Source of the DNA: Candidatus Azambacteria bacterium
GTDB lineage: Bacteria > Patescibacteriota > Minisyncoccia > GWC2-36-17 > WO2-46-25
Assembly (NCBI GenBank): GCA_016234725.1
Contig: JACRAK010000019.1
Span: 69,801 to 105,429, forward strand
Direction: 5' to 3'
Length of the DNA stretch: 35,629 nt
The notes below the pieces were generated by a model that made no database searches, was not told the DNA's origin, and saw only the letters and a list, made by a program, of their open reading frames with translations. This document shows, in pieces, positions 14,475 through 35,218 of the stretch; the stretch's first letter is position 1; each line of letters starts with the position of its first letter. The position numbers and the translations under genes are program-made.

Positions 14475-14486
14475 TAACTATTAATC

Positions 14487-14528
14487 ATTCTAGTTTCTAG
14501 ATTCTAGTTTCTAGATTCTAGTTTCTGT
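14487..14528 (+). repeat. Heptad tandem repeat (6 units) in the groES leader
   Basis: ATTCTAG TTTCTAG ATTCTAG TTTCTAG ATTCTAG TTTCTGT. Confidence 0.85.
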
Positions 14529-14832: not shown

Positions 14833-14888
14833 GTAGAATGTAGCGAGTAGAACGTAGCAAGAAAATCCCTACTCCCTACTCGCTAAAT
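14833..14888. repeat. Heptad-phased inverted repeat in the groES-groEL spacer
   Basis: GTAGAAT GTAGCGA GTAGAAC GTAGCAA gaaaatc CCTACTC CCTACTC GCTAAAT, all in one 7-nt phase. Confidence 0.8.
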
Positions 14889-26709: not shown

Positions 26710-27396
26710 ATGGATTGGTCAACATTAGAATCTCACATCAACGTTACGTTCGCGAATAAGGATCTTCTTGTTCAGGCGTTCGTACATCGTTCATATTTGA
26801 ACGAGAACCCTAATTTCTATTTGGATCATAACGAAAGGCTTGAGTTCCTCGGCGACGCGGTGCTTGAGCTTGTTGTGACCGACTATTTATATCATCACTA
26901 CCCTAATCCGGAAGGGGAGCTTACTGCGTGGCGGGCGGCGATCGTCAACGCGAAAATGCTTGCGAAGATCGCGGAACGCCTCCGCTTGAATTCATATCTT
27001 TTGCTTTCAAGAGGAGAGGCAAAAGATGCCGGCAAGGCGCGACAGGTGATACTTGCAAACGCGCTTGAAGCGCTTCTTGGCGCTATCCATCTTGATCAAG
27101 GGTATGCGGCGGCCGCGGGGTTTGTTCACGCGCAGATCATTCCGGAGCTCGCCGAGGTCATCACCGAGCAAAAATATAAGGATGCGAAAAGCTTACTGCA
27201 GGAGATCGCGCAAGATAAGCGCGGGATCACGCCGCACTATGCGGTTTTGAAAGAGTGGGGGCCCGACCATGCAAAGAACTTCCGCGTGGGAGTGTATCTT
27301 GGCGAGGAAGCGGTGGGAGAAGGGGAGGGCATATCCAAGCAAGACGCCCAGCAATTTGCCGCCGAAGATGCGCTTCGGAAATTGGGGTGGCGATAA
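26710..27396 (+). CDS. rnc: Ribonuclease III
   Basis: HRSYLNENPNFYLDHNERLEFLGDAVLELVVTDYLY...LANALEALLGAIHLDQGY...C-terminal dsRBD. Confidence 0.97.
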   Translation: MDWSTLESHINVTFANKDLLVQAFVHRSYLNENPNFYLDHNERLEFLGDAVLELVVTDYLYHHYPNPEGELTAWRAAIVNAKMLAKIAERLRLNSYLLLSRGEAKDAGKARQVILANALEALLGAIHLDQGYAAAAGFVHAQIIPELAEVITEQKYKDAKSLLQEIAQDKRGITPHYAVLKEWGPDHAKNFRVGVYLGEEAVGEGEGISKQDAQQFAAEDALRKLGWR

Positions 27397-32555: not shown

Positions 32556-33715
32556 TCTCTTTTTACTAAGAGTTTGATTCTAGCTCAGGATGAACGCTGG
32601 CGGTGTGGATAAGGCATGCAAGTCGAGCGGCTTTTCTTACTTTCGCAAGAAAGTTTGAAAGGTAGCGGCGAACGAGCTAGTAACACATTGGTACGTACCC
32701 CGAAGTCAGGTATAACTTGCCGAAAGGCAGGCTAATTCCTGATGGTCTCTACCGTAACAGGATGAGTAAAGAAGCAATTCGCTTCGGGAGCGGCCTATGG
32801 CCTATCAGCTAGTTGGTGAGGTAATGGCTCACCAAGGCTATGACGGGTAGGGGGCGTGAGAGCGCGACCCCCAGCGATGGGACTGAGACACGGCCCATAC
32901 TCCTACGGGAGGCTGCAGTCGAGAATCTTCCACAATGGGCGAAAGCCTGATGGAGCGACACCGCGTGTGGGATGAAGGTCTTCGGATCGTAAACCACTTT
33001 TTTATGGGATGAACCTTCGGGTGACAGTACCATAAGAATAAGAGGTTGCTAACTCTGTGCCAGCAGCAGCGGTAATACAGAGACCTCAAGCGTTATCCGG
33101 ATTTATTGGGCGTAAAGAGTCTGTAGGCGGTTTGCGTTTCTCTCCGCAAGGGGAGAACTTCAAGTCTGGTGTTAAATCTCAGAGCTCAACTCTGAAACCG
33201 CATCGGATACTGACAAACTTGAGAGCAGGAGAGGTGTGTAGAACTTATGGTGTAGGGGTGAAATCCGTTGATATCATAGGGAATACCAAAGGCGAAGGCA
33301 TCACACTGGCCTGACTCTGACGCTGAGAGACGAAAGCGTGGGGAGCAAAAAGGATTAGATACCCTTGTAGTCCACGCCCTAAACGATGAGTGCTAGCTAT
33401 TTGAAGTATCGACCCTTCAAGTGGCGAAGCTAACGCGTTAAGCACTCCGCCTGGGAAGTACGGCCGCAAGGCTAAAACTCAAAGAAATAGACGGGGACTC
33501 GCACAAGCAGTGGAGCATGTGGTTTAATTCGTCGGTAACCGATAACCTCACCAGGGCTTGACATGTACATGAAAGCCGTATGAAAGTATGGCCCTCTCAC
33601 AAGGACATGTGCACAGGTGCTGCATGGTTGTCGTCAGTTCGTGCCGTGAGGTGTTCCGTTAAGTCGGGAAACGAACGCAACCCCTATTGCCAGTTACAAG
33701 TGTCTGGCGAAACCG

Positions 33716-33851
33716 CCCCCCACTTTGCGCACAAAGTGCGCTAGAAAGTAGCGAGTAGTATGTAGCGAGTAGTGAAATGCATTCCGCGTTTTCTACTCCC
33801 TATGTTCTACTTTCTACTCGCTAGCGTTCGCTTTGCGAATAAAGTGGGGGG
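33716..33851 (+). other. Expansion of 16S helix 40 (V7 region) folding as a four-way junction with heptad-repeat arm
   Basis: CCCCCCACTTT/AAAGTGGGGGG base stem; GCGCAC-AAA-GTGCGC and TTCGC-TTT-GCGAA side hairpins; central GTAGCGA/GTAGTAT heptads pairing with CTACTCC/CTATGTT/CTACTTT heptads. Confidence 0.8.
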
Positions 33852-34470
33852 AGGAAGGAGGGGATGACGTCAAATCAGCATGGCCCTTTGATGCCCTGGG
33901 CCACACACATGCTACAATGGGAGGTACAATGGGTTGCCAAACCGTAAGGTGGAGCTAATCCCATCAAAACCTTCCTCAGTTCAGATTGAGGTCTGCAACT
34001 CGACCTCATGAAGATGGAATTGCTAGTAATCGCGGAACAGCAAGCCGCGGTGAATACGTTCTCGAGTCTTGTACTCACAATAAAAGCGCCAAGCAGCTTA
34101 GTTTTCTAAGCGGTTCAAATCCGTTTCTCTCTAACCGTTTGAGAGCATAGCCGAAGGATAGCGCATTGCCGCGAGGAAATGCGTGGAGGATCTTGAGGCA
34201 AAAGACAGCCCGAACATAAAAGAACCGGTCGACCTGCCAGTGGGTGGTGAGGGCAGGGAAGATCCGAAGAAAAGTTCGTTTGGGATGTCCGGAATAGAAA
34301 ATGAAGTGACCTTGGGAGATCTGATGGTTTGCGTTAGAATGAAACAACTGACCCCGGTAGTAGAACCTTCGGTTCACTACGGGGCAGGCGCAGCGTCAGA
34401 AGTCAGCTGGATCGTAGTAGTCGAAGCACATAAGAATTTATGTGCTCGATGAAGGCATCCACTCAATCAT

Positions 34471-34899
34471 ATGCTTACAGCAGATTACATTGTCGGTTTA
34501 GTTGATGGTGAAGGCAGTTTTACTGTTTACGTGAGGAATCCTGAAGATTTCTCGCCGCGTAAACGAAGGGTAAAAGTGGAACCGAGGTTTTATATAAAGC
34601 TCGTGGAGAAAGATAAGAAAATTCTCTACGAACTGAAGAAATTCTTCGGCTGCGGGAATGTCTATTTTCAAAAAGATATTCGCGCGAACCATCAGCAGTG
34701 CTATCGGTATGAGGTGGCGAATCGAACGCATCTTAAAGAGATTATCATTCCGTTTTTTCGGAAAAACGATCTCCGATTTCCGTCAAAGCAGAAAGATTTC
34801 AAAATCTTTTGCTCATTGATAGACATGATGCGGACAGGAAATCATCTTACTGAGAAAAGACAAGCCAAAATGTATCTGTTAAAGCAGAAAATGCATTGA
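34471..34899 (+). CDS. LAGLIDADG homing endonuclease (single motif), intron-encoded
   Basis: MLTADYIVGLVDGEGSFTVYVRNPE...FYIKLVEKDKKILYELKKFFGCGNVYFQKD...RYEVANRTHLKEIIIPFF...FKIFCSLIDMM. Confidence 0.92.
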   Translation: MLTADYIVGLVDGEGSFTVYVRNPEDFSPRKRRVKVEPRFYIKLVEKDKKILYELKKFFGCGNVYFQKDIRANHQQCYRYEVANRTHLKEIIIPFFRKNDLRFPSKQKDFKIFCSLIDMMRTGNHLTEKRQAKMYLLKQKMH

Positions 34900-34901
34900 G
34901 C

Positions 34902-34934
34902 TCGCCGCATACGGGAAATCCGTCCGTGCGGTGG
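34902..34934 (+). other. Group II intron domain V-like hairpin
   Basis: UCGCCGCA-U-ACGG-GAAAU-CCGU-CC-G-UGCGGUGG: CGC triad with G.U wobble, 2-nt CC bulge, short GAAA-containing tip. Confidence 0.72.
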
Positions 34935-35218
34935 GAACATACATTCTTAGTTTCAAAGAACATAATCGCCCGTCACACCAGGGAAGTCGGTAATGCCCGA
35001 AGTGCCACGTTTATTCGAGGTCCTAAGGCAGGATCGATGACAAGGGTGAAGTCGTAACAAGGCATGCGTAGCGGAAGCTGTGCATGGATCACCTCCTTTT
35101 TAGGGAGTTTTCTCTCTAAAAAGGTCGATGTTTTATTCTCTTTTTATTAAGGGTTAAGACCATATGATGGCTGGCCAATCACATCACAAACATTGGCAAC
35201 GCCGCGCAAGCGGCGGGG

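Follow-up and report, generated by a model that had tools for sequence, protein, structure and literature searches.

The window, that is, the whole 35,629-nt stretch of DNA analysed here, forms the end of contig 5 in a Candidatus Azambacteria genome of 923 kb and 32 contigs. Its forward strand, which also bears the stems, hairpins, heptad arrays and RNase III gene located below, carries a 16S rRNA gene at positions 32562 to 35103 (3′ end approximate), with an Rfam RF00177 match at 32562-34125 (1250.7 bits). The gene was split by two insertions, one in helix 40 (h40) and the other, a LAGLIDADG intron, near the 3′ end; the true 3′ end was found after this intron, near 35100, with the anti-Shine-Dalgarno sequence CACCTCC. 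The h40 insert, 136 nt long (33716-33851), lay within this SSU_rRNA_bacteria match and exhibited exactly the coordinates, the two small hairpins and the heptad arm given in a preliminary description of this DNA. From established 16S numbering and aligned relatives, we take the enlarged helix to be h40, corresponding to E. coli positions 1158-1178. The spacing across h40 was 167 nt in the window versus 45-46 nt in relatives with a normal h40.

The insert was characterized, at its base, by a lengthened h40 stem, whose 5′ strand CCCCCCACTTT (33716-33726; sequence, fold, and alignment with the normal h40 of relatives) pairs with the 3′ strand AAAGTGGGGGG (33841-33851; sequence and fold). The first small hairpin, GCGCAC-AAA-GTGCGC (33727-33741), formed a local stem of 6 bp, with 3 of 200 shuffles as good, and the second, TTCGC-TTT-GCGAA (33827-33839), a local stem of 5 bp, with 12 of 200 shuffles as good. 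The second hairpin was complementary to the region of the first as well as to itself. Between them lay the heptad arm, of the form TAGAAA(GTAGNNN)n, loop, (NNNCTAC)n TA (33742-33823), which was delimited by sequence, fold and autocorrelation, and in which the core was paired, with one mismatch per 7 nt.

The predicted fold of the insert reached -75.9 kcal/mol (z = -11.5), a value equalled by 0 of 200 shuffles. The four-way junction previously proposed for this insert was possible and nearly isoenergetic, but was not the minimum-energy fold: in the trimmed insert of 133 nt, a single long rod scored -70.6 versus -66.7 kcal/mol for the four-way form, both energies excluding coaxial stacking. The rod scored better because the two small hairpins are mutually complementary.

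The second insertion in the 16S rRNA gene, near E. coli position 1400, contained a LAGLIDADG-like single-domain ORF of 142 aa (34471-34899), with the stretch VGLVDGEGSF. Upstream of this ORF, a sub-threshold group II D1-D4 match was observed alone (34165-34252; 23 bits). These features agree with the 16IS9 introns, which are group-II-like (PMC11270868).

Heptad repeats in the genome of the window

The 11-mer GTAGCGAGTAG had 26 exact matches in the 0.92-Mb genome and 0 in the reversed control, with about 0.4 expected for an 11-mer. The genome-wide search for GTAGNNN heptads that had been suggested at the outset revealed a dispersed repeat, with 15 matches to four units in register versus 0 in the control. 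Moreover, windows with a 7-nt periodicity occurred at 9.5 per 100 kb, versus 0.4-1.7 at lags of 5, 6, and 8. The intergenic GTAG copies seen were mostly inverted pairs, with the GTAG arm leading. One of these, a palindrome retrieved by genome pattern search in the groES-groEL spacer (14833-14888), is indeed a copy of the h40 arm text, as first noted. The genome also hosts the heptad families TTCTAGN, NTGAANC, and GAATNNN, the first of which was represented in the window by an array at 14479-14513, found by a lag-7 window scan. Of the other structural RNAs checked in this genome, the 23S rRNA and the RNase P RNA were free of heptads; the 7-nt windows near the 23S rRNA gene fell in its flanks. 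The origin of the arm from resident heptads is well supported.

Among 95 relatives, the richest in GTAG was G005, a genome of the same order (its 16S rRNA being in L058), with 65 four-unit arrays and yet a normal h40. The spacers in its arrays were mainly TTG, GTT, TGA, or TTT.

Heptad arms of h40 across CPR lineages

Expanded h40 regions were gathered by spacing and length alone, regardless of repeat content; the flank patterns were exact, so that prevalence is not readable from these scans. Expansions were found in Moranbacteria, Liptonbacteria, Falkowbacteria, Parcubacteria, and further families. Over 20 expanded CPR h40 loops, the mean autocorrelation was 0.442, 0.367, and 0.326 at lags 7, 14, and 21, respectively, versus about 0.23-0.28 at other lags. 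In eighteen of the 20 loops, at most one of 300 dinucleotide shuffles reached the observed value, and the two exceptions were L061, which corresponds to genome G003 of the window's own family, and L089, a short one; three others (L054, L095, and L190) were judged by eye or by a simpler score, outside this formal test. The core varied by lineage (GTAG, ACAAC, AGCT, GAAT, CCAA, and others).

Some expansions were devoid of heptads. The h40 region of L061 (143 nt) exhibited two hairpins and no heptads, and L183 was another long expansion that was not heptadic. Short expansions without heptads (spacing of 73-102 nt) were also observed in L086-L091, belonging to families f40 and f64, which adjoin heptad-bearing Moranbacteria on the tree.

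In most of the other inserts, the combination of self- and mutual complementarity between the two small hairpins recurred, and the hairpins were better than those of shuffles. The four-way form usually lay within 0-9 kcal/mol of the best fold, and a minimum-energy fold with three separate arms was observed only in L125 and L055 among the 23 inserts. The inserts of L042-L208 exhibited two small GC hairpins that were both self- and mutually complementary, with GAA and TTC loops in several of them, so that an exchange between rod and cruciform is possible in many lineages.

The core of the arm was compared with the repeats of the genome that carries it. ACAAC, the h40 core of G390, was found in 66 arrays in the G390 sample and in 0 in seven other genome samples. 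Arrays of AGCT, the h40 core of G401, were found in G401 only (6 counts, or 3 with the strands merged, as this core is self-complementary). CAAC arrays numbered 82 and 66 in two genomes with CAAC h40 arms and 0-8 in the others, except for one whose arm has the related core CCAA and which contained 76; these counts have no usable reversed control because the spaced pattern is unchanged by reversal. Per 100 kb of their own genome, arm 11-mers were observed 12, 38, 18, and 30 times in G000, G390, G401, and G155, versus 4, 4, 4, and 11 times, respectively, when reversed; they were also enriched in G019. No enrichment was found for the arm 11-mers of G211 in its own genome, and the arms of G294 and G019 matched other genomes too and are thus not host-specific. 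The genome of L125 was the richest in GTAG heptads (115), and yet its h40 arm is of the GAAT type, which is also resident there (64); GAAT arrays were present in all 15 genomes tested. Among the cores tested, the h40 core thus usually belongs to a resident family of the same genome, and genomes seem to host several heptad families, of which h40 holds one.

The composition of the unit was examined in G390, using units located between two CAAC cores and themselves unconditioned. The core was kept in 84-99% of these middle units and the preceding A in 94%, versus two positions that carried only 0.0-0.5 bits. A CAAC spacing of 14 occurred in 96 cases, versus 3-9 at neighbouring spacings. In the inverted pairs of this genome, the CAAC arm came first in 11 out of 11, and the two arms shared the core and not the free bases, so that the heptads of a hairpin contain mismatches. 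The same pattern of core and free positions, less sharp, was found for GTAG, GAAAC, and TTCTA in G000.

Heptads were also found inside protein-coding genes. In its sense orientation, which is the sole strand that is stop-free in all frames, (CTACTCG)n reads as LLATRYS within ksgA and mnmA, identified by NCBIfam matches of 232 and 440 bits, respectively, and occurs twice in one glycosyltransferase (loci L021, L024, and L008/L011). Compared with solved homologues, the heptad segments of ksgA and mnmA were located in stretches that vary, and added little or nothing to the length. The copies in genes were single arms, not palindromes. As six-frame ORFs span more than 90% of the genome samples, the genic share of the heptads is not readable from them. 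The location of these copies indicates that the repeat enters sites that tolerate change, and h40 is best understood likewise. In L004 and L019, heptad arrays coincided with, or immediately preceded, the start of two prepilin-like frames (KKLLATRYSLHSERGYSLIELM and STRYSPPSPQKGFTILELIVVLG), resembling part of a leader peptide.

On a 16S rRNA tree built without h40, the heptad state required nine changes, at least eight of which were forced by supported branches; the h40 of L060 was masked and its row wrongly marked as expanded, which left the heptad count unaffected. The tree sister of the window was G003 (same family, 88%), and aligned relatives of the same order (nearest 85%) carried a normal h40. 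Conserved non-heptad versions of the insertion in relatives would, according to the preliminary description, have spoken for vertical inheritance; the non-heptad expansion of G003 differs in sequence from that of the window. Taken together, the expansion of G003 and the normal h40 of the same-order relatives suggest that the h40 expansion may be older than the heptads in this family, and indicate that the heptad arm of the window is not the inherited sequence.

The 16S rRNA genes of L208 and L084/L161 were 99.1% identical over 1018 nt before h40 and 100% identical over 234 nt after it. Nevertheless, h40 was a 144-nt heptad version in L208, whereas that of L084/L161 was 76 nt long and contained only a simple hairpin. 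A transfer of the 16S rRNA gene or a gene conversion is possible for this pair. Their gene neighbourhoods were only about 78% alike. A further comparison is suggestive: L048 resembles the L084 hairpin with an arm placed in its loop, in a gap-rich alignment. Between L154 and L164, which are about 92% alike overall, both small hairpins were unchanged and the CCAA core was largely kept, and the arms differed at variable positions. As judged from these comparisons, in many ultra-small bacteria of the CPR type h40, a surface helix, has been enlarged time after time by palindromic heptads of the kind dispersed in the same genome, of which the window provides one clear example. The initial proposal that an intergenic palindromic repeat had entered an rRNA expansion site is thus upheld by the 26 versus 0 genome matches, by the many CPR lineages concerned, by their different cores, and by the near-identical 16S pair.

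Origin and fate of the arm

We consider it probable that the tip of h40, tolerant in many CPR, has been repeatedly colonised by the heptad palindromes of the host genome, and that these are most likely retained. These palindromes are short inverted arrays of a 7-nt unit, in which 4-5 nt form the conserved core and the other 2-3 positions vary, and their core sequence differs between genomes. As the sequences show, the arm of the window is such an array of the resident GTAG family, the h40 inserts of other genomes use other cores, usually resident there, and arms have been gained or lost many times. Copying may take place at the DNA level, on single-stranded or hairpin DNA, by template switching, by repair at a cruciform, or by some mobiliser. 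Within the gene, the arm would be tolerated as it would fold on the ribosome surface into a long rod (or a cruciform), with stable GC hairpins flanking the folded arm. Selection would keep the core positions paired, and the variable positions would drift as internal mismatches.

Several findings count against this reading. In ksgA and mnmA, the heptads do not clearly lengthen the protein overall, which would be odd for a simple insertion, the match between arm and host is imperfect (L125, G211, G294, G019, and GAAT in all 15 genomes), and the expansions of G003, L089, and L183 are not heptadic.

The fate of the arm could also be different. An RNase III-type intervening sequence of genomic origin would be excised from the precursor, leaving a fragmented 16S rRNA, which we regard as rather unlikely, even though it is the strongest of the alternatives. 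The stem is long and stable and rnc is present: the gene noted earlier at this place is plausible by sequence, as a 228-aa ORF (26710-27396) in which the signature HNERLEFLGDAVLEL was read by eye. In addition, CPR rRNAs are rich in insertions, and those that are short and unexplained, at known sites in the 23S rRNA, have been proposed to be RNase III intervening sequences (PMC11270868). However, every heptad carries a mismatch, which is expected to weaken cutting, and the fully paired base of h40 is only 11 bp long. Retention of the arm in the mature 16S rRNA therefore seems most likely, a judgement which draws on two inferences: pairing appears to be maintained through divergence (L154/L164), and the mismatches should hinder RNase III.

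The repeats could alternatively be heptanucleotide SSRs that grew by polymerase slippage alone, with h40 as one tolerant place among others. Heptanucleotide repeats are the commonest class of long SSRs in many bacteria, for which slippage has been proposed (PMC4679880), and the variable positions were identical within some arms (L306). Slippage alone predicts neither the contrast between core and free positions in the unconditioned middle units of G390, nor the single polarity of its 11 inverted pairs, nor the unequal free bases of their two arms, and we therefore find it unlikely as the whole explanation.

RAYT (Y1) transposases are associated with GTAG-headed palindromes, and the heptads could be REP-type elements mobilised by such enzymes. 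The GTAG tetranucleotide fits this origin, and Y1_Tnp genes were found in G000 (two) and in G005 (four, with 65 arrays). However, different cores are found not only between genomes but also in a single genome, G000 yielded only a weak Y1_Tnp match (36 bits), and several genomes with GTAG arrays (G048, G066, G067, G080, and G084) had no Y1_Tnp gene; in a plain comparison of presence, the transposase genes did not track the arrays, and this origin is improbable. Finally, a periodicity of 7 nt that is merely a vertically inherited rRNA structure, unrelated to genomic repeats, would agree with the recurrence of the two-small-hairpin architecture across families and with its sharing by descent in L154 and L164, but is largely refuted by the difference in arm presence between the near-identical 16S genes of L208 and L084/L161, as well as by a core that differs by lineage and usually matches the host genome, and we give it very little credence.

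Colonisation of h40 by host heptads can be extended to a more general reading, which we put forward tentatively and hold to be somewhat doubtful. The inverted heptad ladder of CPR would be a distinct class of repeat, of a single polarity, in which a genome-specific core of 4-5 conserved nt is combined with 2-3 free positions. With an undescribed mode of copying, it would enter tolerant sites in rRNA and protein genes and build a retained, lineage-specific h40 arm, which might alternate between the rod and the cruciform.

Known repeats and rRNA insertions

Heptanucleotide repeats have been described in phylogenetically scattered bacteria, with many per genome and often in intergenic positions (PMC4679880). 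Like the STRR of cyanobacteria and the TAACTGA repeats of Beggiatoaceae and others, the CPR heptads are tandem 7-nt units. Unlike these, CPR arrays are often inverted, with one polarity and a conserved core with free positions; moreover, the core differs by genome and the RNA invaded is h40 of the 16S rRNA. The entry of such repeats into a structural RNA has its nearest parallel in heterocystous cyanobacteria, in which STRR heptamers were reported within the RNase P RNA gene (rnpB). The heptads also partly resemble Rickettsia palindromic elements (RPEs), which are repeats of reduced genomes located inside reading frames that they leave unbroken, and which occur in RNA genes as well. RPEs are longer, with a sequence that can be aligned family-wide, whereas the heptads share only the unit and the period.

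Like RNase III-excised rRNA intervening sequences, the h40 arm is a sporadic hairpin insert in a variable helix, with the flanking helix kept. Such intervening sequences are common in small genomes (PMC11270868). Unlike the intervening-sequence sites proposed in the 23S rRNA, 23IS2 and 23IS4 (PMC11270868), the arm is located in the 16S rRNA and has regular mismatches. It occurs in the same genes and lineages as the CPR group I and II introns with LAGLIDADG ORFs, one of which is present in the 16S rRNA gene of the window. However, no Rfam intron family reached the gathering score over the window, and the h40 insert, too short at 136 nt, does not encode a homing endonuclease, the LAGLIDADG ORF being in the separate downstream insertion. 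A survey of CPR rRNA insertions reported short uncharacterised ones, most of them under 200 bp, and its main text does not use the words "repeat" and "palindrome" (PMC11270868). In one open-access library, we found no paper dealing with h40 or with heptad repeats in CPR, nor one linking heptanucleotide repeats (PMC4679880) with CPR rRNA insertions (PMC11270868).

In most studies, expansion segments of rRNA are treated as inherited and slow to change. The h40 expansion appears to have been swapped repeatedly for the dispersed repeat of the host, once between 16S flanks that are about 99% identical, so that how such a segment arises can be studied directly. These results also point to a widespread class of CPR repeats with a simple, testable grammar, consisting of a core and free positions with a period of 7. 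Moreover, 16S surveys may be affected, as lineages that carry such arms could be overlooked or misrepresented through the primers, alignments, and length filters used near h40.
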